Of a DNA stretch of 64,000 bases, positions 11,410 to 60,507 are shown in pieces. This stretch comes from an uncultured Gammaproteobacteria bacterium (lineage in GTDB: Bacteria > Pseudomonadota > Gammaproteobacteria > Eutrophobiales > Eutrophobiaceae). Made by a program: the position numbers and the translations under genes. Within the stretch, counting starts at the first letter, position 1; each line of letters opens with the position of its first letter. The notes under the pieces were generated by a model. The model had not been told where the DNA came from. It did not search any database and saw only the letters and a program-made list of their open reading frames with translations. The stretch covers positions 1 through 64,000 of the forward strand of contig CALSOP010000007.1 of NCBI GenBank assembly GCA_943788005.1, given 5' to 3'.

Positions 11410-11417
11410 TGCGACTT

Positions 11418-11873: not shown

Positions 11874-11893
11874 TATTTTAAACGGTAGATTAA

Positions 11894-41233: not shown

Positions 41234-41263
41234 GTACTAAACAGACGTAAGTTTGTTAAAATG

Positions 41264-41296
41264 TCCCCGGCACTTAGGTGTCGGGGATTTTTTTTT
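41264..41296 (+). terminator. Strong Rho-independent terminator after xoxF
   Basis: TCCCCGGCAC-TTAG-GTGTCGGGGA, ten base pairs with one wobble, followed by nine T. It separates xoxF from the cupredoxin/xoxJ genes. Confidence 0.95.
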
Positions 41297-41579: not shown

Positions 41580-42030
41580 ATGAGTAAGATGAAATTAACC
41601 AATATTCTAGCCAAAATTATGATTGCATCTGCAATATTACTACCTAATTTTGTCTATGCTAGCGATCACGTAATAAAAGCGGGTTCACGAGCCTTTGAAA
41701 CACCGATCCTTTATGTTGCGGAAGGTGACAGAGTTCATTTTTCAAACATGAACTCGCATAATTCTGTATCTGTTGATGGTTTAATTCCTGATGGTGCAAC
41801 ACCTTGGGCCGGTGATATGGGGGAAAATGTTGCCCCAGGATTAGAAAAAAGCAGGCATCTATTCATATGTTTGCGCACCACATATTGGTTTCGGTATGGT
41901 CGGTGTCATCGTAGTAGGGGATGTTAGTGCTGATGACATAGCCGCTTATAAGCAAAAGGCGATTGACACATTAGAAGGGCCGTATCGAAGATTGCTTGGC
42001 AAGATTAACAAGATTAAACCAACCATATAA
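41580..42030 (+). CDS. Pseudoazurin/plastocyanin-like cupredoxin (one-base frameshift)
   Basis: Small periplasmic type 1 copper protein. Signal peptide MIASAILLPNFVYA (about residues 14-27), then VAEGDRVHFSNMNSHNSVSV, with the first copper-ligand His in the NSHN motif. Removing one A from the run at 41846-41851 gives YSYVCAPHIGFGMVGVIVVG, which supplies the Cys, second His and Met ligands (C-x2-H-x4-M), and the protein ends at TAA 42028-42030 with about 149 residues. As given, the frame runs into nonsense after LEKSRHLF. The gene sits where methanol dehydrogenase clusters normally carry cytochrome cL, and could be the electron acceptor. Confidence 0.82.
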
Positions 42031-42099
42031 TCTTACTGTTTTGATTAAAATTACCAATCAACTGGAATGCCCGCTGCTAACCGGCGGGCTACATAACTT

Positions 42100-42948: not shown

Positions 42949-42960
42949 AGTTATAACCTT

Positions 42961-43850: not shown

Positions 43851-46640
43851 TTATATCTTCTTCCTGTTGATTTCATCATTAGCACGCGTTCCCTTTTTCA
43901 AAGCGACGGCACAAAATTTAAATTCTGGTATTTTACCAAAAGGGTCTAACTCCTCATTGGTAATCAAATTTGCTGCTGCTTCACTAAAAGTAAATGGCAT
44001 CATGACAACGCCTTCCAACATATGTTCATCTGCACGTGTCGTGGCCGCTATCCTGCCTCGGCGTGATTCAATAACCAGCATATCGCCTGTTTTAATTTTA
44101 AACTTAGCCATATCTTTTGGGTTAATCATGACGCATGGACCAGGCTCAAGTGCATCTAGAACGCGTGAATGTCGCGTCATGGTTCCTGTATGCCAATGCT
44201 CTAATTGACGACCAGTAACGAATACATAAGGAAATTTAGGATCAGGCATCTCTGCAGCTTCAATATATTCAGCTGGTACAAATCGACCTTTACCGTCATC
44301 TGTCGGGAAGACGCCATCTTTAAAAATAATGGGTTCACCAGGGTCGCCTTCTTTTAACAGTGGATATGTTAGGGAGTCTTCTTGTTCCAGTCTTTCCCAT
44401 GTAATGCCTCCCATACTTGGTACAGCCTTACGGATTTCATTAAAGACATCTTTAGGACCCTTATAATTCCAATTAAGACCAATCCGATTTGCAATCTCTT
44501 GAATTATCCACAAGTCTTGCTTAGCCTCACCAGGAGGGTCAATAGCTTGTCTACCCATTTGCACCCGACGATCAGTATTGGTAAACGTTCCCGTTTTTTC
44601 TGGAAATGCGCTAGCAGGTAAAATTACGTCTGCATAACTGCAGGTCTCGGTAAAGAATATATCCTGAACTACGCAGTGTTCAAGGTTTGCCATTGCAGCG
44701 CGCGCATGATTTAGATTTGGATCAGACATAGCAGGGTTTTCACCCATTATATATAGACCATTTATATCCCCATCATGAATGGCATGCATAATCTCGACTA
44801 CGGTCTTACCAACATTATGATTTAGTTCCTGACCCCAAAGTTTTTCAAATTTTTCTCTGACTTTTGGATCAGAAACAGGTTGGTAATCGGGATAAACCAT
44901 AGGGATTAAACCAACGTCTGAAGTGCCTTGTACATTGTTTTGGCCACGTAAGGGATGTAATCCTGTGCTGACTCGACCAATCTGTCCGGTCATAAGTGCC
45001 AGAGAAATAAGGCAACGGGCATTATCTGTTCCATGGATATGTTGTGATATTCCCATTCCCCAAAATATTATTGCTGTTTCTGCCTTTGCATATAGTCGTG
45101 CAACAGTTTTTATTGTGTCAGGTGGAATTGCACAAATGGGTGCCACATCTTCTGGACTGTATCTAAGTACAGTTTCTTTTAACGCCTCAAAACCATCGGT
45201 GTGTTTATCAATAAATTCCTGGTTTTGTAAGTTTTCAGTAATAATTGTGTGCATCATTGCATTAAGCAGTAATACATCTGTGCCAGGTCTTAATTGCAAT
45301 AAGTGCTCTGCATGGAGGTACATTTCTGAACCATAGGGCTCAATCAGTATTAATTTGCTTCCACGATCTGTGGCATTTTTAATAAATGTAGCAGCAACAG
45401 GGTGGTTGTCATTTGGACGAGCTCCAATAACAATGATGACTTCTGCTTTTGAACCATCAGCAACCTGATTAGATACAGCTCCAGAACCAATCGTCTCTAA
45501 TAGGGCTGCTACCGATGATGCGTGACAAAGGCGTGTGCAATGATCAACATTGTTGGTACCAAAACCTGTGCGAACAAGTTTTTGTACTAGATAGGCTTCT
45601 TCATTACTGCCTTTAGCACAACCAAAACCAGCTAATGCTTCTGAACCTTTATCATCTCTAATGGTTTTTAATCCATTGGCAGCATAGTCCAAAGCTTCTT
45701 CCCAACTGGCTTCGCGAAAATACTTGTGCATATCTAATGGGGCGATTAAATCAGGAGTTTTCTCTGCATCATCACGACGAATTAATGGTGTACTTAGTCG
45801 ATCTGGATGATGGACATAATCAAATCCATATCTTCCTTTTACACATAGTCTGCTTTTATTTGAAGGACCATCGCGGCCTTCAATATATTGAATATGATTG
45901 TTTTTAACGTTATAGGTAAGTAAACATCCTACTCCGCAATAAGGACATGCCGATTCAACTTTTTTATCTGGTTCGATTAAGCCAACATTTTTTGCCGGCA
46001 TCAACGCACCTGTAGGGCATGCCTGGACACATTCGCCACAAGCTACGCAGGTACTTTCACCCATGGGCTCGGCCATATCGAAGGTAATCTCTGCATGTTT
46101 GCCACGATAAGCTAAACCAATAACGTCATTAACCTGCTCTTCACGACAGGCCCTGACACAACGTGTGCATTGAATGCAAGCATCAAGATTTACAGCTATA
46201 GCCGGGTGAGAGAGATCTGGTTTGGGTTGTTCACGAGATTCAAAGCGTGGATTGAAGACGTTAAGTTTTTCAGCCCAATAATCTAGTTCAGAGTGTAATG
46301 TATAGGGTGATTTCCCTTGTTGGGGCATATCAGATAATAATAATTCCAATACCATCTTTTGAGAAAGCTGAGCTCGTTCATTATCACTTGTTACTTCCAT
46401 GCCTTCAGCAGGTTGGCGACAGCAAGAGGGTGCTAATACTCTTTCTCCATCAATCTCTACCATGCAAGCGCGACAGTTGCCGTCAGGGCGGTAGCCTTCT
46501 TTATAACAAAGGTGAGGTATTTCTATGTCATTTCTTTTTGCAGCCTGGAGTATAGTTTCGTCACCATAGGCATCGATTTCATTTCCGTTAAGTTTAAAAG
46601 TAGTGGCCTTTTCATTCATGAATTTTGGATTAGCAGCCAT
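43851..46640 (-). CDS. fdhA: NAD-dependent formate dehydrogenase, catalytic alpha subunit
   Basis: 929-residue Mo/W-bis-MGD protein that oxidises formate to CO2. In order: an N-terminal [2Fe-2S] domain (CYKEGYRPDGNCRACMVEID, about 45-65); a His/Cys region; two [4Fe-4S] clusters (CIQCTRCVRAC and CVACGECVQACP); a third at ACPYCGVGC (about 230); and the catalytic domain. DHCTRLCHASS places the active-site Cys at about 372, where selenoproteins have Sec. The C-terminal MGD-binding domain has FPYVFVTGRQLEHWHTGTMT. With the fused 51/24-kDa-type subunit upstream it forms an Fdh1-type two-subunit enzyme; whether Mo or W is used is not visible. It completes formate oxidation for the H4MPT pathway. Confidence 0.93.
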   Translation of the reverse strand: MAANPKFMNEKATTFKLNGNEIDAYGDETILQAAKRNDIEIPHLCYKEGYRPDGNCRACMVEIDGERVLAPSCCRQPAEGMEVTSDNERAQLSQKMVLELLLSDMPQQGKSPYTLHSELDYWAEKLNVFNPRFESREQPKPDLSHPAIAVNLDACIQCTRCVRACREEQVNDVIGLAYRGKHAEITFDMAEPMGESTCVACGECVQACPTGALMPAKNVGLIEPDKKVESACPYCGVGCLLTYNVKNNHIQYIEGRDGPSNKSRLCVKGRYGFDYVHHPDRLSTPLIRRDDAEKTPDLIAPLDMHKYFREASWEEALDYAANGLKTIRDDKGSEALAGFGCAKGSNEEAYLVQKLVRTGFGTNNVDHCTRLCHASSVAALLETIGSGAVSNQVADGSKAEVIIVIGARPNDNHPVAATFIKNATDRGSKLILIEPYGSEMYLHAEHLLQLRPGTDVLLLNAMMHTIITENLQNQEFIDKHTDGFEALKETVLRYSPEDVAPICAIPPDTIKTVARLYAKAETAIIFWGMGISQHIHGTDNARCLISLALMTGQIGRVSTGLHPLRGQNNVQGTSDVGLIPMVYPDYQPVSDPKVREKFEKLWGQELNHNVGKTVVEIMHAIHDGDINGLYIMGENPAMSDPNLNHARAAMANLEHCVVQDIFFTETCSYADVILPASAFPEKTGTFTNTDRRVQMGRQAIDPPGEAKQDLWIIQEIANRIGLNWNYKGPKDVFNEIRKAVPSMGGITWERLEQEDSLTYPLLKEGDPGEPIIFKDGVFPTDDGKGRFVPAEYIEAAEMPDPKFPYVFVTGRQLEHWHTGTMTRHSRVLDALEPGPCVMINPKDMAKFKIKTGDMLVIESRRGRIAATTRADEHMLEGVVMMPFTFSEAAANLITNEELDPFGKIPEFKFCAVALKKGTRANDEINRKKI

Positions 46641-48301
46641 TATTTAAATTCCTCAGGGAAATATTTCATCGCACAACGTAAAGGATTTGGTGCAGCTTGA
46701 CCTAAGCCACAAATAGATGCATCGACCATTGCAGTTGAGAGCTCTTCTAGCAGAGGTTGATCCCAATCATCTTTCTCCATTAGCTTAACTGCCTTAGCAG
46801 TTCCAACTCTACACGGCGTACACTGACCGCAAGATTCATCTTCAAAAAAGCGCATTGCATTTAATGCCATTTGTTTTGCACTGTCTTTGTCGGATAAAAC
46901 AACAATTGCTGCTGAACCAATAAAGCATCCATAAGGCTGTAAGGTATCGAAATCCAGAGGGATGTTAGCTAATGAAGCAGGCAAAATGCCACCTGATGCG
47001 CCGCCTGGGAAGTAACCATAAAAATCATGGCCATCTAGCATTCCACCACAATACTCATCTATTAGTTCCTGCATGGTTATGCCAGCAGGGGCAAGATGCA
47101 CACCGGGTTTTTGCACTCGACCACTGACAGAGAACGATCGCAACCCTTTCCTATCATGACGACCATTGCTAGAGAACCATTCCGGACCATTACTAATAAT
47201 GTCCCGAATCCAGTGCATACTTTCCATATTTTGTTCGAGGGTAGGATGGCCAAATAAGCCAACCTGCGCAACATATGGAGGCCGTAATCGTGGCATCCCG
47301 CGTTTGCCTTCAATAGACTCAATCATTGCAGATTCTTCTCCACAAATATAAGCACCCGCGCCGCGTCTTAAGTGTATTTCAGGTAACTCACAAGGAGGAT
47401 CTTGCTTCAGTAGTTTAAGCTCTTTTTCTAATGCTTTGCGACAACCAGCATATTCGTCTCTTAAATAAATATAAATTTTGTCAGCATCGGTAGCCCAATG
47501 AGCAATTAGAGTACCTTCGATAAAACGATGAGGATCTTGCTCGAGGTAAACCCTGTCTTTAAATGTCCCTGGTTCACCCTCATCTATGTTAATAGCAACC
47601 ATTTTAGGCTTTGGTTGTTCGCTTAAAATGCGCCATTTACGCCCAGTAGGGAACCCTGCGCCACCAAGACCGCGTAGATTAGAATCTTCCAGTAGAGAGA
47701 TAATGTTTTCTCGTTCAAATTTACCTTCAATACAATCTACTAATAGTTGATAGCCGCCATTTTTTTTATATTCTACAAAGCTTATACAATCAGCTTTACT
47801 ATCTTCAAAGGCATTATTGTCGATTGCTGATTTAACCTTCGTTATATCCGCAGTTTCTATCGGGTTCGTTCCAACAACAGCAACTGGAGCCGCGTGACAC
47901 CGCCCGACACAAGGCACTGCTTGAATACGAACGTCATCAATGTCTTCAGCCTCAAGTTGTTGGAGTAGTGTTTTAGCGCCAAACATCTCACAGGTCAGTG
48001 AATCGCACACTCGTACTGTTTTGGCGGGCGGGGGTGATTCATTTTCTTTTAATACATCAAAGTGATGATAAAAGGTTGCTGTTTCATAGACTTCAGCCAT
48101 AGGCAAGCTCATATCTATAGAGAGCGCAAGTATGTGACGGTTTGATATGTGGTGATAGTGATCTTGTATTTTATGAAGATTCTCAATCAACATATCTCTT
48201 GTGCGTGGAGCATCACCAAGAATCTGCCTGATATCGGCTAAAGCTTTATGGGGGGTAGTGCGGCCTTCTACACGACCTTTCTTTCCGCGAGTTCGTTTCA
48301 T
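46640..48301 (-). CDS. fdhB: NAD-dependent formate dehydrogenase, beta subunit (NuoE-NuoF fusion)
   Basis: 553 residues. The N-terminal NuoE-like domain (about 25-165) has a [2Fe-2S] site (CDSLTCEMFG, then VPCVGRCHAAP). The C-terminal NuoF-like domain has the FMN/NAD site (GLGGAGFPTGRKW and GEPGTFKDR), ICGEESAMIESIEG, and the [4Fe-4S] motif ESCGQCTPCRVGT. The fusion is diagnostic of the Fdh1-type enzymes of methylotrophs; complex I keeps these as separate genes and no other nuo gene is here. Its stop overlaps the start of the alpha subunit by one base. Confidence 0.93.
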   Translation of the reverse strand: MKRTRGKKGRVEGRTTPHKALADIRQILGDAPRTRDMLIENLHKIQDHYHHISNRHILALSIDMSLPMAEVYETATFYHHFDVLKENESPPPAKTVRVCDSLTCEMFGAKTLLQQLEAEDIDDVRIQAVPCVGRCHAAPVAVVGTNPIETADITKVKSAIDNNAFEDSKADCISFVEYKKNGGYQLLVDCIEGKFERENIISLLEDSNLRGLGGAGFPTGRKWRILSEQPKPKMVAINIDEGEPGTFKDRVYLEQDPHRFIEGTLIAHWATDADKIYIYLRDEYAGCRKALEKELKLLKQDPPCELPEIHLRRGAGAYICGEESAMIESIEGKRGMPRLRPPYVAQVGLFGHPTLEQNMESMHWIRDIISNGPEWFSSNGRHDRKGLRSFSVSGRVQKPGVHLAPAGITMQELIDEYCGGMLDGHDFYGYFPGGASGGILPASLANIPLDFDTLQPYGCFIGSAAIVVLSDKDSAKQMALNAMRFFEDESCGQCTPCRVGTAKAVKLMEKDDWDQPLLEELSTAMVDASICGLGQAAPNPLRCAMKYFPEEFK

Positions 48302-48564: not shown

Positions 48565-49389
48565 TCATTTATAATGTTGTAAAATTAAAAGCTCTCCTTT
48601 TCCATTTCTGGCCAAGTCTCCTGAAAACCTGTGTGCTTCGGGGCCATATTTATTGAATAGGGTAAGTTCTTCATCAATACTCGCTAATTGTGTAAATAAT
48701 AGGCGTAAGAACTGCATTTTCAAATTGCCACAGCTTTTGAACGTTGCTGATAGATGAGTGGGTTTTTTAGCAAGTATTATCGTGCCACGGCGCATACCTT
48801 CTCCAGGCAATTTTCCTACTTTATCAAGGACAATTATCGTGCCTGCATGAATACGGCTGCCACAATAATTCCCGGATTTACCATGGATTATGATTATACC
48901 GCGTCGCATTCTATCGCCAACTCGGTCGCCCGCATTCCCTCTAATATTGATAAGGCCATTGGACATGCCAAACGAATCACCGGGTAATCCGGCACCAACG
49001 TAATCACCAGCATTGCCATTGATATTAATACGACCTCCAGACATGGCGTTACCTGCCCAAGAGCCAGCATTTCCAATAACCGTCAATATGCCATTCTTCA
49101 TCCCTTGTCCTAGAAAATCTCCGACATCACCTTTTATTGTAATACTGCCTTTGGTCATCCCATGACCTGCATTGATAAGCTTATCTGAGCTTTTTTCAAT
49201 AATTACCTGTGACGAATCGGAACCTTTTACAGAAAATAAAGTATCAAGTTTGATCGCTTTATTGCCATAAATGAGTTTTAAATTCTTTATATTAGTAAGT
49301 GTTTTACCTTCTAGATTATCCGGAGTTAGTGGCGTTACCTCCAAAGTGAATTCAGGTTGCTTTTTCAATGTAAATACTAACGCGCTCAT
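48565..49389 (-). CDS. fhcC: Formyltransferase/hydrolase complex subunit FhcC (copy 1)
   Basis: 274-residue right-handed beta-helix subunit homologous to FwdC of formylmethanofuran dehydrogenase and to the GltB C-terminal domain. Stacked repeats of the form GxGMxxGxIxIxGNAG are visible (GNAGSWAGNAMSGGRINING, GNAGDYVGAG, GNAGDRVGDRMRRGIIIIHG). It scaffolds the other Fhc subunits. Last gene of fhcBADC copy 1; overlaps fhcD by four bases. Confidence 0.93.
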   Translation of the reverse strand: MSALVFTLKKQPEFTLEVTPLTPDNLEGKTLTNIKNLKLIYGNKAIKLDTLFSVKGSDSSQVIIEKSSDKLINAGHGMTKGSITIKGDVGDFLGQGMKNGILTVIGNAGSWAGNAMSGGRININGNAGDYVGAGLPGDSFGMSNGLINIRGNAGDRVGDRMRRGIIIIHGKSGNYCGSRIHAGTIIVLDKVGKLPGEGMRRGTIILAKKPTHLSATFKSCGNLKMQFLRLLFTQLASIDEELTLFNKYGPEAHRFSGDLARNGKGELLILQHYK

Positions 49390-50282
49390 TTGAGTAGTTT
49401 CCTAAGGTGAAATAAATGAGGGCCTAGATTGCCACCATAATTTCCTGCACTGATACGGCAAATACCTTTTGCAGGACCAAAAGAGCATGCTGCCTTTATG
49501 CCTAAGCGCATTGCTTCGTTTATAGATTCTTCATCAAGGCCATCTATTACGATTTCAAGCACTGAACCAATCTCATCTGATAGCTCGGATTTAACCTGAC
49601 CTTTCAAGGTAGGGCAGTAAGCCTCATTGGTTGATGCAGTAAGAAATTTATACTTTGAACCTACTTTTGAACCTGAGCCAACAACACCTCCAGGGAAAGC
49701 AGTTATAACACCTGGCACCTTTTGAATTTCTTCGACTGCCTTTTCGCAGGCAGCAAGTCCATGTCTGGCAGTTTTTGCCAAGACTAGAAAGTTTCCTCCA
49801 CCGATAGCTTTTGTTACGCCCGCCGTTTCTTCAACAATGAATTCGCCATGCATCACCGGGATGCGCCAAAAACGCCTTTTATTGACTACTTTTGATATTT
49901 GAAATCCATCCCCAAAAAAACGAAGACTTTTACCCATAGAAACTTTTTGTTCGCTATCTAATCCTGAATAACAGGCAGTTGTAGCTGTGGTCATAACTGA
50001 TTGACCAACACGCGTTGCAACATGCTTTTCAAGATCTTTCATCGACATAGCAAATATCATGACGGAAATGCCTGGTCTGCCATCAGGTGTTTCAGATGGT
50101 TTAAGCTCTCGCTCAATATCTGCTTCAATGCCACACGCTATGACGGATGATGCAAAACCGCGAATTGCATTAGCAGCTCGATATGCCCATTTGAGTGTCA
50201 TTGCGGTGATGATTATGCGTGTTGCTTTCATAGGGAAAGCTTCCGCAAATGTATCATCTATCTGTACGCCATTTATTTTCAT
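49386..50282 (-). CDS. fhcD: Formylmethanofuran:H4MPT formyltransferase FhcD (copy 1)
   Basis: 298 residues. Transfers the formyl group from formyl-H4MPT to (methylo)furan. Characteristic segments are GVQIDDTFAEAFPMKATRII, FGDGFQISKVVNKRRFWRIP, ETAGVTKAIGGGNFLVL and the C-terminal ISAGNYGGNLGPHLFHL. Homologous along its length to archaeal Ftr. Preceded by fhcA with ten bases between. It differs strongly from the second copy at 55,982-56,893, so the two are old paralogues rather than a recent duplication. Confidence 0.95.
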   Translation of the reverse strand: MKINGVQIDDTFAEAFPMKATRIIITAMTLKWAYRAANAIRGFASSVIACGIEADIERELKPSETPDGRPGISVMIFAMSMKDLEKHVATRVGQSVMTTATTACYSGLDSEQKVSMGKSLRFFGDGFQISKVVNKRRFWRIPVMHGEFIVEETAGVTKAIGGGNFLVLAKTARHGLAACEKAVEEIQKVPGVITAFPGGVVGSGSKVGSKYKFLTASTNEAYCPTLKGQVKSELSDEIGSVLEIVIDGLDEESINEAMRLGIKAACSFGPAKGICRISAGNYGGNLGPHLFHLRKLLK

Positions 50283-50291: not shown

Positions 50292-51947
50292 TTACATACA
50301 GGGTTGCACGATGATTTTGCCGTTACCATGCTCAACGATTTCATCATCATCAATTTTAAAATTACCAAGGCTAACCGTTTGGAAATCATCAAAATAACGT
50401 TTAAGTGATTTTTCTATCCCGTTATCATATTCCGGCCTCAGCGTATGAGTGGCGCCATTGACTACTTTTACAATTTTTCCATTACGCACTATAAGTTCAC
50501 CATTTTTAAATACGTAGTCAGGCTTACTAAACATCTTCTCTTTATCTTTATGGTTGCTGTATACAGTTATATCTGCAACAGCCCCTGATCCTAAGTGCCC
50601 ACGATTCTTTAAACCTAGACTTCTTGCCGGTGCTGCTCTTGTCATGATTGCGATATCATATAATGAATACTCTCTATCGATACTTGCTAGTGTACTTGCA
50701 GCAGCAGCCTCTTTATTAATGGTAGAGAGCATGTCATTTCTAAAGCTTCTATCCATCAATAAACGTATCAGATGCGGGTAACTTGTAAATGGTGCGCCGT
50801 TAGGATGATCTGTTGTCAAAAAAACTCTCCAGGGGTCATCGACAAGTAAAAATATTTCGAGACCTATAGCCCATTGCAATGCATTTACAAAGTTTTTGTC
50901 TCTGTATTTAAAAGGTACAACTCCACAACCCGCGTCACACTCAATATCCATAATCACCCATTTTTTTGGGTCTGCATGCCAGTGTCCAGCATATTGGTGC
51001 TGGGAATCCCCCGAGGCAGTGACAGTTTGGCCAAATAAAATTTGTCCGACATCAATAGAAATATTCGGGTTTTTATTGACGGCTTCAGCAATTTCTGCAG
51101 CACCGGATGAAAAGTTTTTATCTCCTTCAGTGCCGTAGCTGTGAAATTGAATATGAGTAAGATGCATCCGCATACCATCAACAGCACGTATAGTCTCTAG
51201 TGTAGTGTTGAGATTGCCGGGGACACCCAGGTTGCAGCCATGTACGTGTAGTGGGTGTGGAATACCTAACTCAGTAACTGCTCTAGCCAGAGACTTAAGA
51301 ATATCTCGAGGTGATACACCGTAATATTGATTTAATTCGTCTAGTTCAAGTTTACGCTGGTTAAATTTAAAAGCACTTATTCCGCCTGGGTTAACGACTT
51401 TGATTCCAAGCGCCTGAGTGGCATTAATCGTCCAACCGACATAATCACTGATTGCGGCCTGGTCTTTTTTTGATGCGAGCATGCGCAAAAAGAAATCATC
51501 ACTGCCAAGCATGGCATAGGCACCTTTATCGACCATGGGTGTGTCGGCCATTTCCATGTGTGTTTGACGAGCGTTCGAAGGTAGCATTGCTGGTTCAAAG
51601 CAGGCTGTATAGCCCATTTCAGCGTAACGGTAACCTGCAGTTAGTGTAGAGGGAGCTGCATAACCACAGCCAGAACGCGTCAATTCTGTTTTTTCAACTA
51701 AATCTGCGGCATGATCTTCTGGTAACATCATGCGGGCTATATTGATCTTGCCTCCACCTATGTGAGTATGAATATCAATAGCGCCGGCCATTATGATCTT
51801 GCCTTTCATATCATAGGTTTTACATATCTTCGTATTGCTTGAAGGTTTACGGGTTATATATCCATCGTTGATATAGATGTCCCGATGTTCACCATTAATT
51901 CCGTGTACCGGATCGTAGACAATACCGTTAGTTAATTTTATATACAT
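50292..51947 (-). CDS. fhcA: Formyltransferase/hydrolase complex subunit FhcA (copy 1)
   Basis: 551-residue amidohydrolase that hydrolyses the formyl-furan cofactor to formate. The binuclear zinc site is complete: DIHTH (His60, His62), the carboxylated Lys in GIKVVNPGG, His in LHVHGCNLG and THIQFHSYG, and Asp in TTDHPNGAPF. The segment VNPGGISAFKFNQ resembles the usual bacterial FhcA. Lies between fhcB (ten bases) and fhcD in one operon. Confidence 0.94.
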   Translation of the reverse strand: MYIKLTNGIVYDPVHGINGEHRDIYINDGYITRKPSSNTKICKTYDMKGKIIMAGAIDIHTHIGGGKINIARMMLPEDHAADLVEKTELTRSGCGYAAPSTLTAGYRYAEMGYTACFEPAMLPSNARQTHMEMADTPMVDKGAYAMLGSDDFFLRMLASKKDQAAISDYVGWTINATQALGIKVVNPGGISAFKFNQRKLELDELNQYYGVSPRDILKSLARAVTELGIPHPLHVHGCNLGVPGNLNTTLETIRAVDGMRMHLTHIQFHSYGTEGDKNFSSGAAEIAEAVNKNPNISIDVGQILFGQTVTASGDSQHQYAGHWHADPKKWVIMDIECDAGCGVVPFKYRDKNFVNALQWAIGLEIFLLVDDPWRVFLTTDHPNGAPFTSYPHLIRLLMDRSFRNDMLSTINKEAAAASTLASIDREYSLYDIAIMTRAAPARSLGLKNRGHLGSGAVADITVYSNHKDKEKMFSKPDYVFKNGELIVRNGKIVKVVNGATHTLRPEYDNGIEKSLKRYFDDFQTVSLGNFKIDDDEIVEHGNGKIIVQPCM

Positions 51948-51957: not shown

Positions 51958-53235
51958 CTACATTCTTTCTATGACTTGTTTGAGGATAGTGTTAACACTC
52001 TCATAAGGAGATTGCCTTACTTTTTTTAATGGCAATGAAACCACACTGTCTGTGCGTAATAACTGACCAGTATCATCAACTCCTGGTGTTGATACTGGAA
52101 TGAAAACATCAGGTTTAAAGTTTAATCTAGTATCAGGCGTGCCTAAAACTATAGTTGGTATTGATGCCCGTGGAGAATTAACATCTGAACTAAAGCTTGA
52201 AATCCAGAGCAGGGTGTCCACTTCTTTATTTTTAAGAACATTGTGTGTTGAATATCGTTGAGCATCGTACTCAGGATAACCTTTGTTGAAATTAACACGT
52301 AATGGATAACCACTTTGCCAGGCACAAACGCTATTTGCACTTGTCGCACCATCATTACCTGCTAATGAAAATCCAGCAAAACGTGTATATCGTGTTAAAT
52401 ATTTAACTATTTCACAAAAGTTCTGAATCGTAAGTTCGGCGTGAGGAATATCTAGTTCGGCTGGAGACCAGACAATAACACCGTATTTTGCAGCCTTCAT
52501 TTGTTCAGCTAATGTTTGAAGTGTCTTAATTTTTATGCCGGCTATTTCGTTTACATCTAGCGTTGCCCCTGTAACTAAGGCATGCAGACCAGAAATAACT
52601 TCGCCTATCTCTTCGGTTTTACAATTGAGTGTCGTCGGAGGCTTGCCATTTGGGCTGGTTCCGGCCTTGCTATTGAGTTTATCTCCTATGTAAACGATTT
52701 GGCGTTGCTCATTTTTGAGCTTAAACATGGATTTTTTATTCCAGATGGTGCGTTCAAAAAATCGCGGATAATTTCTTGCGTCTGTACCGGCGAAAATAAT
52801 TAGGTCCGCACGGTTTCTAATTTCGGTCATGGTCGTTGTGATCCAACCGAGGTCCTGTAATACAAGTGAGTTACGGATAAGTGCATTACCATGCATATGG
52901 TCAACTATGGCGCCTGTTTTATCTGCAAGATGCATAACTTGTCGCATTCCACCAACATCAGTTCCAAGACCAGCAATTAGTGGGTTATGTGATTTTTTGA
53001 GAATATTACATATTGCAGTTATGGCATCCGAAAGCGGGACATTCTTACCATTAATTTTCGGAGAGCTTATCGCTTGTTTAGTTTCGAAAGAAGCGACTGC
53101 TTTTGGACAACCATTTTCAAGTATCTTAAGCGTCTCATCTTGATTTTGGATAACCAAATCATCACATAGTATCCCACAGAAAGGACAGGTCACATCCTTG
53201 TTGATGGTACTAGAATTAGTTGATGTTTTATCCAA
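51958..53235 (-). CDS. fhcB: Formyltransferase/hydrolase complex subunit FhcB (copy 1, without Mo/W ligand)
   Basis: 425-residue homologue of the catalytic FwdB subunit. The N-terminal cysteines CPFCGILC (17, 20, 24) and Cys43 remain, but where archaeal FwdB has the Mo/W-ligating Cys or Sec in SVCHGPS, this protein reads DHMHGNAL with Met114. It therefore cannot bind the metal in the standard way, matching the known bacterial Fhc, in which the dehydrogenase function is lost and the subunit is structural. The genes fhcB-fhcA-fhcD-fhcC follow in the standard order. A 170-bp gap separates it from the fprA gene upstream. Confidence 0.93.
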   Translation of the reverse strand: MDKTSTNSSTINKDVTCPFCGILCDDLVIQNQDETLKILENGCPKAVASFETKQAISSPKINGKNVPLSDAITAICNILKKSHNPLIAGLGTDVGGMRQVMHLADKTGAIVDHMHGNALIRNSLVLQDLGWITTTMTEIRNRADLIIFAGTDARNYPRFFERTIWNKKSMFKLKNEQRQIVYIGDKLNSKAGTSPNGKPPTTLNCKTEEIGEVISGLHALVTGATLDVNEIAGIKIKTLQTLAEQMKAAKYGVIVWSPAELDIPHAELTIQNFCEIVKYLTRYTRFAGFSLAGNDGATSANSVCAWQSGYPLRVNFNKGYPEYDAQRYSTHNVLKNKEVDTLLWISSFSSDVNSPRASIPTIVLGTPDTRLNFKPDVFIPVSTPGVDDTGQLLRTDSVVSLPLKKVRQSPYESVNTILKQVIERM

Positions 53236-53408: not shown

Positions 53409-54791
53409 TTATTCTGTCACTGACAACATCTCATCAATATAGGTGTATTTCTCTCTAGGTTTCCCTTTGGGTTTTCCACGCTCAATTTCTTCAGCGTCTA
53501 TCTTCTTCCAATCATCATAATTTAAATGACGAATGTTCTTACTTTCTAAAGTCGTAAATATCGCAGCGGCGCCTTGTTTCTTTCTGCCGTCATCCAGCTT
53601 TGCTAGATCTTCTAATAGGCAAGTGACTGTTTCAACACTGCAGGCTCTATTTGTGCCAATTATGCCACTTGGCCCACGTTTAATCCAACCCGCCGTATAA
53701 TATTGTGGAACAACATTGTTCTTATTATCAATGACCCTGCCTTTTTCATTCGGGATGGTGCCCCAGCTTTCATGAAACGGAACGCCTTCAATGGGGATGC
53801 CTCGATAGCCTATGCTGCGAAATAAAATACCGCATTCAAGTTCTACAGTTTCTCCTGTGCCTCTTGCAGACTGTTTAAAAGGTTCTCCGGATAAGCTATT
53901 TTTTTCAAGCACGACTTTTTCTAGTCTAGATTTACCAATTAATTCTCTGGGTCCCATTAAAAAGCTGAAGAAACATTTTCTCGATTTGTTACTGTTAATA
54001 TCAAGTTTAGAAAATTCGCAAAATAGGTCATAGATTTTTTTATTTGCAACATTACTTTTTTCTTCTAATTCACTTGCGCTTTCTGAATTAAGAAGCATGT
54101 CTTGTTCGAGCACAATAGGGATGCAGTCTGCAAGTTCTCCAAACTCACGTAATTCTTTTGGAGTGAATTTAGCTTGAGCAGGACCACGTCTACCAATGAC
54201 ATGTATTTCCTTTATCTTGCTTTCAGCAAGTGTATCTAATGCATGTTGTGCAATATCCGTGTGTTTTAATTCATCGACTGTTTTAGACAATATTCTACTG
54301 ACATCAGCAGCAACATTGCCTTGTCCGATAATGACAGCGACATCGTGAGATAGATCAAATTCACGATCACGATAATCAGGGTGTCCATTATACCAACCAA
54401 CAAATTCAGTAGCCGTATAACTGCCTTTTAAATCTTCGCCAGGGATACCTAGCTTACGGTCTGACTCTGCACCACAAGTAAAGATTATAGCGTGGTGAGA
54501 TTCACATAACTCTTTAACGTCAATATCTGACCCAACAGTTACATTGGCTATTAAATTAAAATCGGATGATTCAGCAATTTTTTCATATAGCTTGATTGCT
54601 TGCTTCAACTTTTGATGGTCTGGTGCTACGCCACTTCGGACCAGACCGAATGGTGAGGGTAATCTTTCGAGTATATCTACCTTAACTGCAATATCAGACT
54701 TTATCAGGGCTTCTGCAGCGTAAAAACCACTGGGGCCACTACCAACGATGGCGACTAATAGTGGATTTTGTTCGCTTCCAAGTGTTGACAT
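53409..54791 (-). CDS. fprA: Ferredoxin-NADP reductase (adrenodoxin reductase/FprA type)
   Basis: 460-residue FAD enzyme moving electrons between ferredoxin and NADP. FAD motif VGSGPSGFYAAEALI (about 15-30), then LPSPFGLVRSGVAPDHQKLK, the NADP motif VIIGQGNVAADVSRIL and the HVIGRRGPAQAKFT segment typical of this class. The late AGWIKRGPSGIIGTNRACSV closes the FAD site. It lies six bases after the ferredoxin gene and belongs to the second fhc unit, which strongly suggests it works with that ferredoxin. Direction (NADPH formation or ferredoxin reduction) cannot be seen. Confidence 0.93.
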   Translation of the reverse strand: MSTLGSEQNPLLVAIVGSGPSGFYAAEALIKSDIAVKVDILERLPSPFGLVRSGVAPDHQKLKQAIKLYEKIAESSDFNLIANVTVGSDIDVKELCESHHAIIFTCGAESDRKLGIPGEDLKGSYTATEFVGWYNGHPDYRDREFDLSHDVAVIIGQGNVAADVSRILSKTVDELKHTDIAQHALDTLAESKIKEIHVIGRRGPAQAKFTPKELREFGELADCIPIVLEQDMLLNSESASELEEKSNVANKKIYDLFCEFSKLDINSNKSRKCFFSFLMGPRELIGKSRLEKVVLEKNSLSGEPFKQSARGTGETVELECGILFRSIGYRGIPIEGVPFHESWGTIPNEKGRVIDNKNNVVPQYYTAGWIKRGPSGIIGTNRACSVETVTCLLEDLAKLDDGRKKQGAAAIFTTLESKNIRHLNYDDWKKIDAEEIERGKPKGKPREKYTYIDEMLSVTE

Positions 54792-54797
54792 TATTTA

Positions 54798-55103
54798 TTA
54801 AAAGCCTAACTCGGACTTACGTTCTTCTGCGCCGGGCAATGGATCCATTTGTTCTTCGCAAACTGGAAGGTCGGCTGCTTTTTCAGCATTGATCTCTATC
54901 CATTTTTCTTGATCTTCCGGAATGTCATCTCCTTCATAGATGGCCTGAACCGGACATTCAGGTATGCAGGCACTGCAGTCAATACAGACATCCGGATCGA
55001 TATACAGCATTTCATCGTCATAATGAAAACAGGCGACAGGGCAGACTGTTACACAATCAGTAAAACGGCAGTTTTTACAGTTCTCAGTTACGATTGTTGT
55101 CAT
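54798..55103 (-). CDS. fdxA: 7Fe ferredoxin (FdxA-like, [3Fe-4S][4Fe-4S])
   Basis: 101 residues from ATG 55103, which follows a near-perfect GAGGAGG Shine-Dalgarno; a longer start at 55130 lacks one. The cysteines are 9, 12, 17, 21 and 25, then 40, 43, 46 and 50 (CIDCSACIPECP), the pattern of Azotobacter-type FdxA that carries a [3Fe-4S] and a [4Fe-4S] cluster. The C-terminal tail (WIEINAEKAADLPVC) is also typical. Its place between fhcC copy 2 and fprA suggests it is the electron carrier for the second complex, in the role played by polyferredoxin subunits in archaeal Fwd. Confidence 0.93.
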   Translation of the reverse strand: MTTIVTENCKNCRFTDCVTVCPVACFHYDDEMLYIDPDVCIDCSACIPECPVQAIYEGDDIPEDQEKWIEINAEKAADLPVCEEQMDPLPGAEERKSELGF

Positions 55104-55165
55104 CGTTTCCTCCTCAGCCTTAACAGGCAATTCATCTAGTGATATTTAAAGTGTTGTAATATGTC

Positions 55166-55978
55166 TTACTTACCTGCGGATAATAAAATTTCCCCTCGAT
55201 TTAATTCAATCGAGTCGCCACACCAACGTTCGAAGGGGCTATTCATTAAAGTATCATTGATAGTGAGCCCTAGTGACTGTAAATATTTAAAATAGTGACG
55301 TAGAAATGAAGGTTGATAATCACAACTTTTGCTAAACGTTGGCAATAGCTCAGTTTTAGTCTGACAAATGATTGAACCGCGTTTCATTCCAGCGCCAGAA
55401 CGAATACCCATCTCTCCAAGCACAATAATAGTGCCCGCGAGCATGTTTACACCGGTAAAGTCACCTGAGTTGCCACCTACGACAATTAAGCCACGACGCA
55501 TAACATGGCCGGTTTCATTTTTAACATTGCCATGCACAATGATTTCACCACCTTGCATGCCAATAGTACTACCGCGATAACCACTGCCGACCATATGGCC
55601 TGCATTACCTTTAATAGTAATCCTGCCACCAAGCATTTCTGGGCCTACCCAATCAGAGGCATCGCCCTCGATGATTATTTCACCGCCACTCATGGCAGCA
55701 CCTGTATGGACACCGACATTACCTGAAACAGTGATTTTACCAAATGACATGGCCGAAGCGATGTGTTTTACATCTACTAAATCACCTTCAACATCGATTT
55801 CACCATCAAAGTCACCACTGCACTCAAAGAAATCTCTTAAAGGAACCTGACGATTACCATAAAATACAGTCAGATTTTCTATTTCAGTTGTGCTGAGAGA
55901 TTGCATTCGATCAGGACAAATGCAGTCGGCTTCCAAAGGCACTTCGGGTTTAGTATGTAATTTTAATTTGAGAGCCAT
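55166..55978 (-). CDS. fhcC: Formylmethanofuran dehydrogenase/Fhc subunit C (copy 2)
   Basis: 270-residue beta-helix subunit with the same repeat as copy 1 (GNVGVHTGAAMSGGEIIIEG, GNAGHMVGSGYRGSTIGMQG, VMRRGLIVVGGNSGDFTGV). The two copies differ over most of the length. N-terminal LHTKPEVPLEADCICPDRMQ contains two cysteines not seen in copy 1. The next gene downstream is the 7Fe ferredoxin (about 60 bases), so the subunit is encoded together with an electron carrier. Confidence 0.93.
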   Translation of the reverse strand: MALKLKLHTKPEVPLEADCICPDRMQSLSTTEIENLTVFYGNRQVPLRDFFECSGDFDGEIDVEGDLVDVKHIASAMSFGKITVSGNVGVHTGAAMSGGEIIIEGDASDWVGPEMLGGRITIKGNAGHMVGSGYRGSTIGMQGGEIIVHGNVKNETGHVMRRGLIVVGGNSGDFTGVNMLAGTIIVLGEMGIRSGAGMKRGSIICQTKTELLPTFSKSCDYQPSFLRHYFKYLQSLGLTINDTLMNSPFERWCGDSIELNRGEILLSAGK

Positions 55979-55981: not shown

Positions 55982-56893
55982 TTAAGTTTCCCCACTCCAA
56001 TCTTTCGAGGCCAAGAGCTGATGTAAATGGATATGATATTGACCAAGCCCACCACCATAATTACCCGCTGATATTTTCTTGATACCAGGTTTAGCCGCAG
56101 CGGTTACACCGATTCGCATTGCTTGTTCTACGGCTTCCAGCGTTAGTCCATCAATGACGATTTCAAGAACACTGTTTATACCCTCATCCAGTTCAGAGTT
56201 ATCGACTACGCCGCGTAATGTTGGGCAGTACGCGTCATTAGTAGAGGCAATCAATTTTTTATATTTAGAACCAACCTTACTACCACTACGAACAACCCCA
56301 TTAGGGAAGGGAAGGATGATATCGGTTAATTCACGCATTGCTTTTGTCGCAGCACTTGCTGCCTTCAATGTCGCTTTTTGATCTTTACCTAAGATTAATA
56401 AATTACCTCCACCAACAGATTCTTGGACATTAAACTGATCATCGACCAGGAACTCACCATCCATGACAGGGATGCGCCATAGTTTTGAATCACCAAGCAC
56501 CTTGCTGATTTGATGACCGTCGCCAAAGTAGCGTAATTGACCGCCGACGATAACAGGCAAGCCTTCGGCTAAGCCGTTATAACAGGCAGTCGTAGGACAA
56601 GTCATAACACATTGACCAATGCGCTCCATTAAACGTTTGCCCAGACTTTCAGCGTCCATGGCAAATATTAATACGCTTACACCGGGTCTTAGATCTGGAG
56701 AGTCATTTGCATCAATAATAGCTTCTATTCCGGCTTCACATTTACAACCAATGACGGATGTTGCAAAACCAGTTATTGACTGTGCAGCGGCCATGGCCCA
56801 TTCTTTTGTCTCTGCAGTAATGATGACGCGACTGCCATACATCTTGAAGGCTTCAGCAAAGGTATCGACAATCGTTGTTGATTTAATTTTCAT
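55982..56893 (-). CDS. fhcD: Formylmethanofuran:H4MPT formyltransferase (copy 2)
   Basis: 303-residue Ftr homologue: TIVDTFAEAFKMYGSRVIIT, RYFGDGHQISKVLGDSKLWR, QESVGGGNLLILG and ISAGNYGGGLGQYHIHLHQL. All the family regions are there, so the enzyme is expected to be active. It lies four bases before fhcC and overlaps fhcA by four bases, showing that formyl transfer and furan-dependent steps are encoded as one unit. Confidence 0.95.
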   Translation of the reverse strand: MKIKSTTIVDTFAEAFKMYGSRVIITAETKEWAMAAAQSITGFATSVIGCKCEAGIEAIIDANDSPDLRPGVSVLIFAMDAESLGKRLMERIGQCVMTCPTTACYNGLAEGLPVIVGGQLRYFGDGHQISKVLGDSKLWRIPVMDGEFLVDDQFNVQESVGGGNLLILGKDQKATLKAASAATKAMRELTDIILPFPNGVVRSGSKVGSKYKKLIASTNDAYCPTLRGVVDNSELDEGINSVLEIVIDGLTLEAVEQAMRIGVTAAAKPGIKKISAGNYGGGLGQYHIHLHQLLASKDWSGET

Positions 56894-58536
56894 GATGATG
56901 CTTTACCTGTGGCTATGATTTCATGGTCATGAAGATAGCTGTCATCTACTGCATAATTTGAAAATTCGATTGAGTAATAACTTTCGAAGAAGGGTTGTAC
57001 AACTTCTTCAATTTTCTTGTCATATTCCGGTGTGATATGTAAAAGCTTGCCGATGAAATCAGTAATAAATTCATGATTACCTATAATGGTTTTACCTGAC
57101 TTGATGACATAACGCGGAGCATTAAACATCATCTCTTTATCATCCATTTCATCGTATATTGTTATATCTGCATCTGCGCCAACACCCAAATGACCTTTGT
57201 TTTTTAAACCTAAGGCTCTTGCAGGACCTGCTCGTGTAATAATAGCAATTTCGTTCAAAGTGAATTCACGATCCAAATCACGCAGTGAACAATTCTCTAA
57301 TGCCTTTTGATTGACGCGTTTCATTTCTTCATGGCGAAACGCCTTATCCATCAACAGTTTTATGAGCTTAGGATAATTCATGAACGAACCACCGTTAGGG
57401 TGATCAGTCGATAAAATCACTCGCCAAGGATCTTTTGCCATTAAGAATATTTCAAGACCAATGGCCCATTGCAGCGTGTGCATATAAATGTGTTCTTGAT
57501 AATTGAAAGGGAGGATGCCGCAGCCACTTTCACATTCAGTATCAGCATTGACCCATTTACCTTTGCTATGTCCTTTCAATACATAAGCTAAAGGTGCATC
57601 GGCAGTCATGATGGTGGACTTGCCAAACATAACCTGACCAACATCACAGGTAATGTTCGGATGATTATCGACGTAGTCGACGATTTCCGCAGCTTTAGAG
57701 ACAGGGTTCTTGCCTAACTCTCCGCCATAACTATGAAATTGGATATGGGCAATGTGCGCGCGCATATCGCCGGCAGTTTTCATGGTTTCTAATGTGGTTA
57801 TATAGTTGCCGCTATGACCAAGGTTATTGCAGTGAATATGCGGTGGATGAGGAAAACCCTGTTTGTCTACGGATTTTATAAATGCTTCAATAATTTGACG
57901 CGGGGTGAGGCCTTCATCGGTTTGTTCATCAATGTCAGAGACATTAGAGTTTTTCTTGCCTTTCCATGGTTCATCACCACCAGGGTTAACCAGTTTTACG
58001 GTATAGGCTTTAGTTGCGTTGATCCACCAGGCTACAGCTTCATTAAACTCTTCCATGCGCTTTTCACGCAATAGGTTTTGCAAGAAAATATTTTCACCAA
58101 GTAAGACATAAAAACCTTTGTCGATGACTGGGGTGTCATGAAACTCTTCTAGCGTATGTCTGGCACCTATGGGTGTTACAGCTGCTTCCATTGCTGTTGT
58201 ATAACCTAATGTTGCATAGCGATATCCAGTAGCAAATGTTGAGGGGACAGTGCCGCCTGTACCTGATCGAGTAAAGGGTGTGCCAGGATGAACATCATGA
58301 CGATGATCTTCAGGTTGAAGTTTTCTTGCTGCGTTTACTTTAGGGCCAGCAATGTGACAATGGATGTCAACACCACCGGGCATTATGACCATGCCTTGTG
58401 CGTCTATCACAGTTGCATCTTCAGGAACAGAATCAACTATTTTGCCGTCCTGAATGCAAATCTCTTTTATCTTGCCATCTATATTATTGGCAGGGTCATA
58501 GACCTTGCCATTTACGATGCGCATAGCTGCGGACAT
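56890..58536 (-). CDS. fhcA: Formylmethanofuran dehydrogenase/Fhc subunit A (copy 2)
   Basis: 548-residue amidohydrolase. The zinc site is complete: DIHCH (His59, His61), carboxylated Lys in AYTVKLVNPGG, His in PHIHCNNLG and AHIQFHSYGG, Asp in STDHPNGGSF. After VNPGG it reads GDEPWKGKKNSNVSDIDEQT, an insertion absent from copy 1. ATG 58536 is preceded by AGGGG; a GTG one codon earlier is possible. In archaeal Fwd this subunit interconverts formyl-furan and formate, which tunnels to the FwdB metal site. A 221-bp gap separates it from fhcB copy 2. Confidence 0.94.
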   Translation of the reverse strand: MSAAMRIVNGKVYDPANNIDGKIKEICIQDGKIVDSVPEDATVIDAQGMVIMPGGVDIHCHIAGPKVNAARKLQPEDHRHDVHPGTPFTRSGTGGTVPSTFATGYRYATLGYTTAMEAAVTPIGARHTLEEFHDTPVIDKGFYVLLGENIFLQNLLREKRMEEFNEAVAWWINATKAYTVKLVNPGGDEPWKGKKNSNVSDIDEQTDEGLTPRQIIEAFIKSVDKQGFPHPPHIHCNNLGHSGNYITTLETMKTAGDMRAHIAHIQFHSYGGELGKNPVSKAAEIVDYVDNHPNITCDVGQVMFGKSTIMTADAPLAYVLKGHSKGKWVNADTECESGCGILPFNYQEHIYMHTLQWAIGLEIFLMAKDPWRVILSTDHPNGGSFMNYPKLIKLLMDKAFRHEEMKRVNQKALENCSLRDLDREFTLNEIAIITRAGPARALGLKNKGHLGVGADADITIYDEMDDKEMMFNAPRYVIKSGKTIIGNHEFITDFIGKLLHITPEYDKKIEEVVQPFFESYYSIEFSNYAVDDSYLHDHEIIATGKASS

Positions 58537-58757
58537 CACATACCCCTAAATATTATCGTTATATTTTTATGAGTAATTTTACGACGGCAGCAATCTGCTA
58601 ATCTGTAATCAGAATACTTTTTAGCTTTATACAAATAAGCGTTTGTATTTAGATCAGTACTTATTTTCTCGTAAATGGTCTCAATTAATTCTAATAAATC
58701 AGACTATAGAAATACTATAGTTTATACAAAACTAAAATTAAAGTGACGCCTTCTTGC

Positions 58758-60119
58758 TTATACAGGAGCAGCCACTTTTACTTCGCCGCTAGCACCACTT
58801 GCATAGTGTTTCGCCAACATTAATTCATTAACCCTTTTATTAATACCCTTCAAAATAGTTTCGTCATCTGGAAATGGTGATTCAAATGCAGGACGTAATG
58901 TAATTGGTACATCGTCCATGCGGTAAACAGTTCCTGTTGTATTGATGCCATAGGTAGAAGTACGAAACGCTACATGGGCATCTTTGCTGGTCTCTGTACA
59001 TTTCGTATCTAAGACAACGATGGGAATACTCTTTAAGTGTTGTATTGCCTTTTTTGGGAAATTAGATGCTGGGTCACTGGCAATTATCATTGCAGCATCG
59101 GCATGAGCGTTTGCCAATGTATCGACTGTAGTGAACTCGCCTGGATTAAAACGTGGGTAGCCGCGGCTGAAATTGACTCCGAATGGGTAGCCAGTCTGCC
59201 AAGAAACAACATTATCGGCTCCGGTTACATTACCATGTCCTCGAACAGGCTTGGCAACGAAATGTGTAAACTCATTCAAATCAGTCGCCAAAGCGAGTAG
59301 AGCGCCAGAATTAAAATGGCGACCACGCGTCATTGTCAGACCCATGCCAAAGAAAAGCACACCAAATCGGCAATTCTTCATTCGATCACTTAGATCTTGC
59401 AATACTGCCAATGGGACGCCGGTACGTTCTTCAATGTCATCTGATAATTTTTTACCTTTTACCAGTGCACGTAAGGCCCATAAGACTTCAAAATCTTTGC
59501 CCGGCTTCGGTCGAATTAGAATATCTGCGACTGGAGAGCTTTTTGTCTTGCGAACATCGACAAGAACAACAGTACGATCTTTTTTGCCTCTGGGGGTAAA
59601 CATGCCTTTTGGTGTTACGGCATAACGACCAAAGTGACGTGGGTGAGATTCGGCAGGATTTCCACCCCAGTAGATAACCAAGTCGGCTCTATTCTTGACT
59701 TCGCCTAATGTACTGGTGCTTTCGCCGACCCCTTGAAAAGCAAGTCCTGATGGACCATGGCAGACCGAAGTCGTGGTATCAATGTTACCTTTGATTCTAT
59801 CGGTGATTGCGACTGCTTGTCGTTGTGCTTCGCAGGTTGTATCACTAAGGCCATAGGTAATAGGAAATTTTGCTTTTGTCAGCGTTTGTGCGGCTTCTTC
59901 GATGGCTTCTTCAATACTGACTTCTTTGCCATCGATCATCGCTGCAGGAGCATCTTCTTCAATGGTATGTTCCGCGAACCAGGCCCGACCAAGAACACAG
60001 GCATTTTTTGATTTAATGATTTTTTTTTCGTCTAGGTCAACGGTGAGGATCATGTCGTCACAGACACAGCCACAGAATGTGCACGTTGCATTTTCAATGA
60101 TCTTGGTATTTTCAGTCAT
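58758..60119 (-). CDS. fhcB: Formylmethanofuran dehydrogenase subunit B with intact Mo/W-ligand cysteine (copy 2)
   Basis: 453-residue FwdB-type protein. [4Fe-4S] cysteines are in CTFCGCVC (13, 16, 20) and Cys41 (KNACVLGRAWF). SVCHGPSGLAFQGVG keeps Cys120, the position that ligates Mo or W in archaeal FwdB/FmdB. Further FwdB-like stretches are GEVKNRADLVIYWGGNPAES, HPRHFGRY, FGVLFFGMGLTMTRGRHF and GHGNVTGADNVVSWQTGYPF. Copy 1 has lost most of these (Met at the ligand position). The upstream gene encodes the matching FwdD-type domain. Together these make a functional formate/CO2 site likely. The metal and activity are inferred from homology. Confidence 0.93.
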   Translation of the reverse strand: MTENTKIIENATCTFCGCVCDDMILTVDLDEKKIIKSKNACVLGRAWFAEHTIEEDAPAAMIDGKEVSIEEAIEEAAQTLTKAKFPITYGLSDTTCEAQRQAVAITDRIKGNIDTTTSVCHGPSGLAFQGVGESTSTLGEVKNRADLVIYWGGNPAESHPRHFGRYAVTPKGMFTPRGKKDRTVVLVDVRKTKSSPVADILIRPKPGKDFEVLWALRALVKGKKLSDDIEERTGVPLAVLQDLSDRMKNCRFGVLFFGMGLTMTRGRHFNSGALLALATDLNEFTHFVAKPVRGHGNVTGADNVVSWQTGYPFGVNFSRGYPRFNPGEFTTVDTLANAHADAAMIIASDPASNFPKKAIQHLKSIPIVVLDTKCTETSKDAHVAFRTSTYGINTTGTVYRMDDVPITLRPAFESPFPDDETILKGINKRVNELMLAKHYASGASGEVKVAAPV

Positions 60120-60159
60120 AGTAACTATTACACCTTAATCGAAAAATTATATTGTGAGT

Positions 60160-60507
60160 TTAAGTTGAGATTTTCTCAATATCAACTTCCATGTGCTTAG
60201 ATAATGGCATACCACAGCCTGCTGTGTCACTAGCCATTAGTTCGCTCGAAGGAGGGCCATAGGGGATAAATACCATACCATCAGGCAAATCTTCAGGTTT
60301 TTTACCTATACAAGTTACTGTTGTTTCTCCTGTTTCATTGCTGAGACGAACTTTATCGCCATCGACAAGCCCCATTTTGGCCATTTCATCTGTATTCATT
60401 TCTAGTGTTGAAGTCACTTCTTTATATTCATCCTTAAGCTTGCCTACGTTTAGACTCGTTCCTTGCTTGCTGGAACGGCCTGGAATTAAGATCATTTTTA
60501 CTGACAC
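60160..60507 (-). CDS. fwdD: FwdD/FmdD-like molybdopterin dinucleotide-binding subunit
   Basis: 115 residues from GTG 60507, six bases behind AGGAG; a longer frame to 60567 has no such site. It is a small beta-barrel of the molydop_binding class. LEMNTDEMAKMGLVDGDKVR resembles the DMEELGVKEGDNV stretch of archaeal FwdD, and DLPDGMVFIPYGPPSSELMA closely matches the EDLPEGIVFIPYGPWAN region. Ends with GCGMPLSKHMEVDIEK. This domain caps the pterin cofactor in archaeal FwdB/D and is not part of the standard bacterial fhcBADC cluster. First gene of the second unit, 40 bases before fhcB. Confidence 0.9.
   Translation of the reverse strand: MSVKMILIPGRSSKQGTSLNVGKLKDEYKEVTSTLEMNTDEMAKMGLVDGDKVRLSNETGETTVTCIGKKPEDLPDGMVFIPYGPPSSELMASDTAGCGMPLSKHMEVDIEKIST

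Follow-up and report, generated by a model that had tools for sequence, protein, structure and literature searches.

Formylmethanofuran dehydrogenases are known from archaea, with the tungsten enzyme (Fwd) of Methanothermobacter wolfei (PDB 5T5I, 5T5M and 5T61) and the F420-reducing, CO2-releasing Fwd of Candidatus Ethanoperedens thermophilum (PDB 8RJA; PMC11493965) as solved examples. In the latter, FwdF is replaced and the electrons pass to a bound F420 reductase (FwdI). In contrast, the bacterial formyltransferase/hydrolase complex (Fhc) of Methylorubrum extorquens (PDB 6S6Y) lacks the D subunit, and this absence together with loop remodelling has cost the B subunit its pterin (PMC11656701). 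Subunits A, B and C have been named in an operon of Methylococcus (PMC517821). Bacterial FwdB proteins with an intact site are already in print: fwdDBA-ftr-fwdC operons with the catalytic Cys118 and the [4Fe-4S] domain were reported in Hakuba actinobacteria, whose genomes lack methanopterin-synthesis genes and fwdFG (PMC7325909), and a survey counted 149 bacterial FwdB representatives, in sets partly mixed with sequences lacking the Cys, and argued for transfer from archaea (PMC10100899).

We investigated a stretch of 64,000 nucleotides (the window) from an uncultured gammaproteobacterium (assembly GCA_943788005.1, contig CALSOP010000007.1), in which the initial annotation had noted a second FhcB with an intact molybdenum/tungsten site beside a separate FwdD-like domain, and had predicted a true formylmethanofuran dehydrogenase. 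We confirmed the observation, and the prediction is supported by sequence, although the protein is of the FwdB type rather than a second FhcB, and is neither the first of its kind in print nor isolated. The initial annotation overlooked a ferredoxin and reductase module in the same operon, which we consider the more telling part of the locus.

Organisation of the locus

The window contains two sets of A, B, C and formyltransferase genes, read from the same strand (Table 1), which are 45%, 29%, 37% and 54% identical in A, B, C and formyltransferase, indicating that this is no recent duplication. The set containing fwdD and fwdB continues into genes for a 7Fe-type ferredoxin and an FprA-type ferredoxin-NADP reductase, followed by the Fhc set and by a probable NAD-type formate dehydrogenase. 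Beyond position 60683, on the other strand, we identified a GHMP-kinase-fold protein, MtdB and an ATP-grasp protein, and Mch and Fae were found further along the contig. The genome additionally encodes three copies of Fae in total, the furan-synthesis family PF04476, MobA and FdhD.

Table 1. Features identified in the window, with the principal sequence evidence for each.
Feature	Coordinates	Strand	Assignment	Evidence
fwdD	60160-60507	-	Separate molybdopterin-dinucleotide-binding subunit	PF01568, 44.6 bits; solved FwdD chains, E 1.1e-14 to 3.1e-8; possible GTG start at 60507 behind AGGAG
fwdB	58758-60119	-	Catalytic subunit (453 aa) with [4Fe-4S] cysteines and Mo/W ligand Cys120	TIGR03129, 503 bits (cut-off 327.8)
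fwdA	56890-58539	-	Amidohydrolase subunit of the second complex	TIGR03121, 693 bits; 8rja_A, E 2.1e-143; M. extorquens FhcA (6s6y_A), E 1.5e-100
ftr	55982-56893	-	Formylmethanofuran:H4MPT formyltransferase of the second complex	TIGR03119, 413 bits; overlaps fwdA by 4 bases
fwdC	55166-55978	-	Subunit C of the second complex	TIGR03122, 266 bits
fdx	54798-55130	-	7Fe-type ferredoxin, proposed electron acceptor of Fwd	7Fe ferredoxin I chains, E about 1e-28
fprA	53409-54791	-	FprA-type ferredoxin-NADP reductase	FprA, E 1.8e-102; adrenodoxin reductase, E 2.5e-94
fhcB1	51958-53235	-	Paralogue that lost the metal site (hydrolytic Fhc complex)	Cys118, His119, Arg288 and His290 lost
fhcA1	50292-51947	-	Subunit A of the first set	TIGR03121, 787 bits
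fhcD1	49386-50282	-	Formyltransferase of the first set	TIGR03119, 427 bits
fhcC1	48565-49389	-	Subunit C of the first set	TIGR03122, 260 bits
fdhB	46640-48301	-	Probable NAD-type formate dehydrogenase, with fdhA	NuoE/NuoF-like
fdhA	43851-46640	-	Probable NAD-type formate dehydrogenase, with fdhB	FdhA domains
PQQ dehydrogenase	39266-41233		PQQ dehydrogenase	

Conservation of the metal site

For FwdB, we found matches to five solved FwdB chains at E 1e-99 to 3e-115, including E 1.9e-109 to M. wolfei FwdB (5t5i_B) and E 1e-106 to the chain of 8RJA, against 3.8e-11 to M. extorquens FhcB. The cysteine of its SVCHGPS motif aligns with Cys118 of M. wolfei FwdB, and the residues Cys118, His119, Arg288 and His290 (M. 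wolfei numbering) are retained as C120, H121, R293 and H295. The roles of the Cys, His119 and His290 near the metal are described in PMC11656701, and Arg288 is probably also an active-site residue. The cysteines at positions 13, 16, 20 and 41, taken as the [4Fe-4S] ligands, are invariant in an alignment of 28 sequences. In contrast, FhcB1 has lost the four metal-site residues but keeps the CxxCxxxC cysteines, as do most FhcB-type sequences for the first three positions (25, 26 and 25 of 26), so the cluster cysteines alone do not distinguish the two types.

We identified 257 confirmed relatives, of which 80 named loci, at 65% identity or more, were studied further. Together with the window, 81 of 81 bacterial FwdB-type sequences keep all four metal-site residues and 0 of 26 FhcB-type sequences keep any, so that a chance motif can be rejected. 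Four of 85 regions first sorted as FwdB-type lie on formate dehydrogenase alpha genes, where they show Cys, His, Arg and Gln at the four positions, and were dropped before this count. Of 86 columns invariant in the five solved FwdB chains, the window's FwdB keeps 71, whereas FhcB-type sequences keep a median of 45%, and twenty-four such positions are at 95% or more in bacterial FwdB and at 20% or less in FhcB. At 12 of the 15 positions that differ in the window's FwdB, the new residue is the commonest one of the bacterial clade; these 15 include His348, which is Asn in all 81 bacterial sequences. We saw no loss of other bis-MGD contacts, although this was judged without cofactor coordinates and with an AlphaFold model that is unsure exactly in the metal-site loops, and some of the 15 changed positions may be pterin contacts.

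A phylogeny placed bacterial FwdB, FhcB and the solved FwdB chains each on one side of a branch (SH-aLRT 95, 100 and 98), although this was a quick search, rooted at its midpoint only, and the FhcB branches are long. A fold search with an AlphaFold model (mean pLDDT 77) gave M. wolfei FwdB as the best match (5t5i_J, E 7.6e-43, TM 0.76), with FhcB behind (E 3.2e-21). The model was uninformative on pterin contacts, as residues 120-135, 167-179, 259-268, 294-299 and 323-326, which include the metal-site loops, fall under pLDDT 50.

For FwdD, the five best PDB matches were all FwdD subunits, four at E 1e-14 to 2e-13 and a fifth at 3e-8. FwdD stands upstream of fwdB on the same strand in 77 of the 80 named loci; of the other three, one begins at fwdB, one has no fwdD in 10 kb upstream and one has none in 1.8 kb. 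None of 13 Fhc-only loci has it. In FwdA, the HxH, Lys, two further His motifs, Asp and the gate Lys, which probably include the ligands of the binuclear metal site, align with M. wolfei FwdA (5t5i_A).

As a marker of a working site, MobA does not discriminate, as it was found in all 10 genomes tested, three Fhc-only ones included, and other molybdopterin-domain proteins likewise occur in all ten.

A ferredoxin and reductase module associated with Fwd

The ferredoxin has the cysteine pattern of 7Fe ferredoxin I, and the reductase, which resembles FprA and adrenodoxin reductase, shares the GRRGP-Q---FT--ELRE stretch with FprA. Of 51 named loci with at least 7 kb after and 4 kb before the middle of fwdB, 43 have the ferredoxin and 42 the reductase. 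In all, 50 of the 80 named loci show the reductase, downstream of fwdB in 44 and upstream in 6, on the same strand and within 4.7 kb in all 50. As a control, we compared the 7 Fwd-only genomes identified in the two surveys described below with 13 of the 32 Fhc-only ones. The ferredoxin was found in 7 of 7 Fwd-only against 0 of 13 Fhc-only loci, and the reductase in 7 of 7 against 1 of 13 (Fisher p 1.3e-5 and 1.0e-4, without correction for relatedness), indicating that the pair follows Fwd and not Fhc. Two of the seven Fwd-only genomes may nonetheless hide an Fhc copy, because only four of their candidates were scored. The one exceptional Fhc-only locus has the reductase beside fhc, with genes unrelated to the operon upstream, in part restriction-modification-like by our reading of the sequence.

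Four further loci (L082, L100, L101 and, as a fragment, L052) carry before fwdD a fused, Nfn-like protein of about 1200 aa instead. In L101 and L082 this protein has Pyr_redox_2 over the cut-off, and in L101 it matches both NfnI subunits, alpha at 8e-16 and beta at 3e-14. L082 adds rnfC, rnfD and rnfB, each over a family cut-off; Rnf was seen in this locus only. None of the four shows the FprA type, and all four have a ferredoxin beside fwd. That other enzymes of the ferredoxin:pyridine-nucleotide type stand beside fwd where FprA is missing is our strongest argument for the electron path, which remains an inference. In contrast, three Chloroflexota and four Planctomycetota loci with sufficient flanking sequence lack the ferredoxin/reductase pair and show none of these replacements within reach, so this coupling is not universal.

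Distribution of the two types

Of 58 genomes (37 of the same family and 21 of the same class, the source genome included), 32 have the FwdB type and 33 the FhcB type, with 30 having both. Of 369 genomes drawn from the class, again including the source genome, 14 have the FwdB type, 39 the FhcB type and 9 both; at most four candidates per genome were scored here, so the last value is a lower bound, and the types were told apart by score alone (702 bits and up for FwdB, 169 and down for FhcB). The best-matching named records are gammaproteobacterial metagenome assemblies, some labelled Thiotrichaceae, and we saw no cultured isolate among the 80 titles. Among plasmid records, 11 had a match, all at 23-29% identity. 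We found no pmoA hit, but none of the 14 control genomes gave one either, so this says nothing.

Comparison with described systems and proposed function

Compared with the M. wolfei enzyme, the locus shares subunits A, B, C and D, the metal cysteine, the second-shell His, Arg and His, the [4Fe-4S] cysteines and the FwdA metal-site motifs. We found no FwdF/FwdG polyferredoxin among the operon's genes, but a single 7Fe-type ferredoxin and an FprA reductase, with ftr inside the operon, in a bacterial methylotroph that probably uses the complex oxidatively. The Ca. Ethanoperedens Fwd resembles our proposal in being an oxidative Fwd with a dedicated reductase module, although here the module is a separate ferredoxin plus NADP reductase. 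The first set in the window has the hallmarks of the M. extorquens Fhc in lacking the metal ligand and a D subunit, and Fhc shares with the second set the A-B-C-formyltransferase gene set and pathway position. The gene order fwdDBA-ftr-fwdC is that of the Hakuba operons. In what we consulted of PMC7325909 and PMC10100899, neither describes a ferredoxin/NADP reductase in the operon or a pairing with Fhc in one methylotroph, and we found no paper on this coupling, although this is weak evidence of absence, as the search covered open-licence papers only, judged by titles and the openings of abstracts.

The best explanation, to which we assign a probability of roughly 0.72, is that fwdD-fwdB-fwdA-ftr-fwdC-fdx-fprA encodes a genuine formyl-furan dehydrogenase working in the oxidative direction. 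Following the archaeal scheme (PMC11656701, PMC11493965), formyl-H4MPT would hand its formyl group through Ftr to the furan cofactor, FwdA would hydrolyse it, and the formate would stay inside the complex, moving through the inner cavity to be oxidised to CO2 at a Mo- or W-bis-pterin site shared by FwdB and FwdD. Electrons would leave through the [4Fe-4S] cluster to the ferredoxin and then, through the reductase, to NADP+. The couple lies at about -0.53 V (PMC11656701), which is probably low enough for a 7Fe ferredoxin. In the same gene run, Fhc would hydrolyse formyl-furan to free formate, oxidised by the adjacent formate dehydrogenase, so that the cell would have two exits for one-carbon units, one giving reduced ferredoxin and NADPH, the other formate and NADH. 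The metal, cofactor, activity, channelling, electron path and direction are inferred from sequence, the direction from the neighbouring genes (PQQ dehydrogenase, MtdB, Mch, Fae) and from energetics.

A true Fwd running mainly in the reductive direction, fixing CO2 onto the furan cofactor and H4MPT for one-carbon supply with ferredoxin reduced by NADPH through FprA or by Rnf, is possible but unlikely. CO2-reducing and CO2-releasing Fwd have almost identical active sites, and the electron acceptor rather than the active site has been argued to set the direction (PMC11493965); the genome has an rnfC over the family cut-off, and no RuBisCO hit at E 0.001 in an assembly that is 85.5% complete. However, the potential of the couple is presumably far below that of NADPH, so FprA could not drive it unaided, and the locus, with its PQQ dehydrogenase, MtdB, Mch, Fae, Fhc and formate dehydrogenase, is built for formaldehyde oxidation. 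About equally doubtful is a true Fwd whose electrons go elsewhere, to an NAD-type FdhB module, another ferredoxin or a membrane complex, with the Fdx/FprA pair serving some other reaction. There is no physical evidence of contact, the seven Chloroflexota and Planctomycetota loci lack both proteins, and formate dehydrogenase genes follow fwd and the reductase in four loci without Fhc; against this stand the association of the pair with Fwd and not Fhc, its position on either side of fwd in different lineages on the same strand, and the Nfn-like and Rnf replacements. That FwdB is a structural relic in a second hydrolase, as the cluster cysteines retained in FhcB-type paralogues might suggest, is very unlikely given the contrast at the four metal-site residues and the association of fwdD with FwdB and its absence from the Fhc-only loci.

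Implications for bacterial methylotrophy

Beside the usual formate-releasing enzyme, this bacterium seems to carry an intact copy of the metal enzyme with which methane-making archaea handle CO2, packaged with its own electron carriers, which would let it turn formaldehyde carbon into CO2 while saving high-energy electrons. As far as we searched, the electron-transfer module and the side-by-side Fwd and Fhc exits in one methylotroph are undescribed. More broadly, it is slightly more likely than not that methanol-oxidising bacteria of several lineages end their H4MPT pathway with a working tungsten or molybdenum formyl-furan dehydrogenase that makes low-potential reduced ferredoxin, used through exchangeable modules (FprA to NADPH, Nfn-like, Rnf) and in many of them in parallel with the hydrolytic Fhc/formate-dehydrogenase exit, as an uncharacterised redox-splitting branch point. 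The locus also places a natural pair, one with the metal site intact and one with it lost, side by side in one cell, so that the function of each can be tested directly. Bacterial one-carbon oxidation through H4MPT is taught as ending with hydrolysis to formate by an enzyme that lost its metal site, whereas these loci suggest that a range of uncultured bacteria carry the redox-active type, with its own ferredoxin and NADP reductase.

Genomic context of fwd, fhc and associated genes

Coordinates of the loci and genes considered
Sequence	Position	Feature
L082 (gammaproteobacterial MAG RBG_16_51_14)	148-9353	rnf genes and Nfn-like protein
L117 (Fhc-only locus)	7990-14085	FprA-type reductase next to Fhc
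L098 (Planctomycetota)	6644-12549	fwdD-fwdB-fwdA and oxidoreductase-like gene
L030 (close relative, 90% FwdB identity)	upstream of 10001	region before fwdB
Window genome, contig C3	13488-21769	FdhD, MobA, PF04476 gene
Window	39266-43758	PQQ dehydrogenase, small ORF, solute-binding protein
Window contig	66814	Fae

In L082, rnfC, rnfD, rnfB and neighbours, plus a 1189-aa Nfn-like protein, stand directly before fwdD. In the Planctomycetota, fwdD-fwdB-fwdA lies back to back in L098 with an aldehyde:ferredoxin-oxidoreductase-like gene, although this scored under that family's cut-off, and a similar gene was found in L102. In L117, there is no Fwd or ferredoxin in the stretch and there are restriction-modification-like genes upstream; it looks like a locus that lost Fwd, or an assembly join. 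L030 has fwdB, but no fwdD, MtdB or GHMP gene in the 10 kb upstream; the locus is rearranged, or fwdD is elsewhere.

In the window genome, FdhD and MobA are neighbours, and the furan-cofactor synthesis gene (PF04476) lies about 6 kb away. The PQQ dehydrogenase (perhaps XoxF-like, judging by its context), the small ORF and the solute-binding protein are found on the strand opposite to the formate dehydrogenase genes; with Fae, the methanol-to-CO2 genes span about 28 kb.
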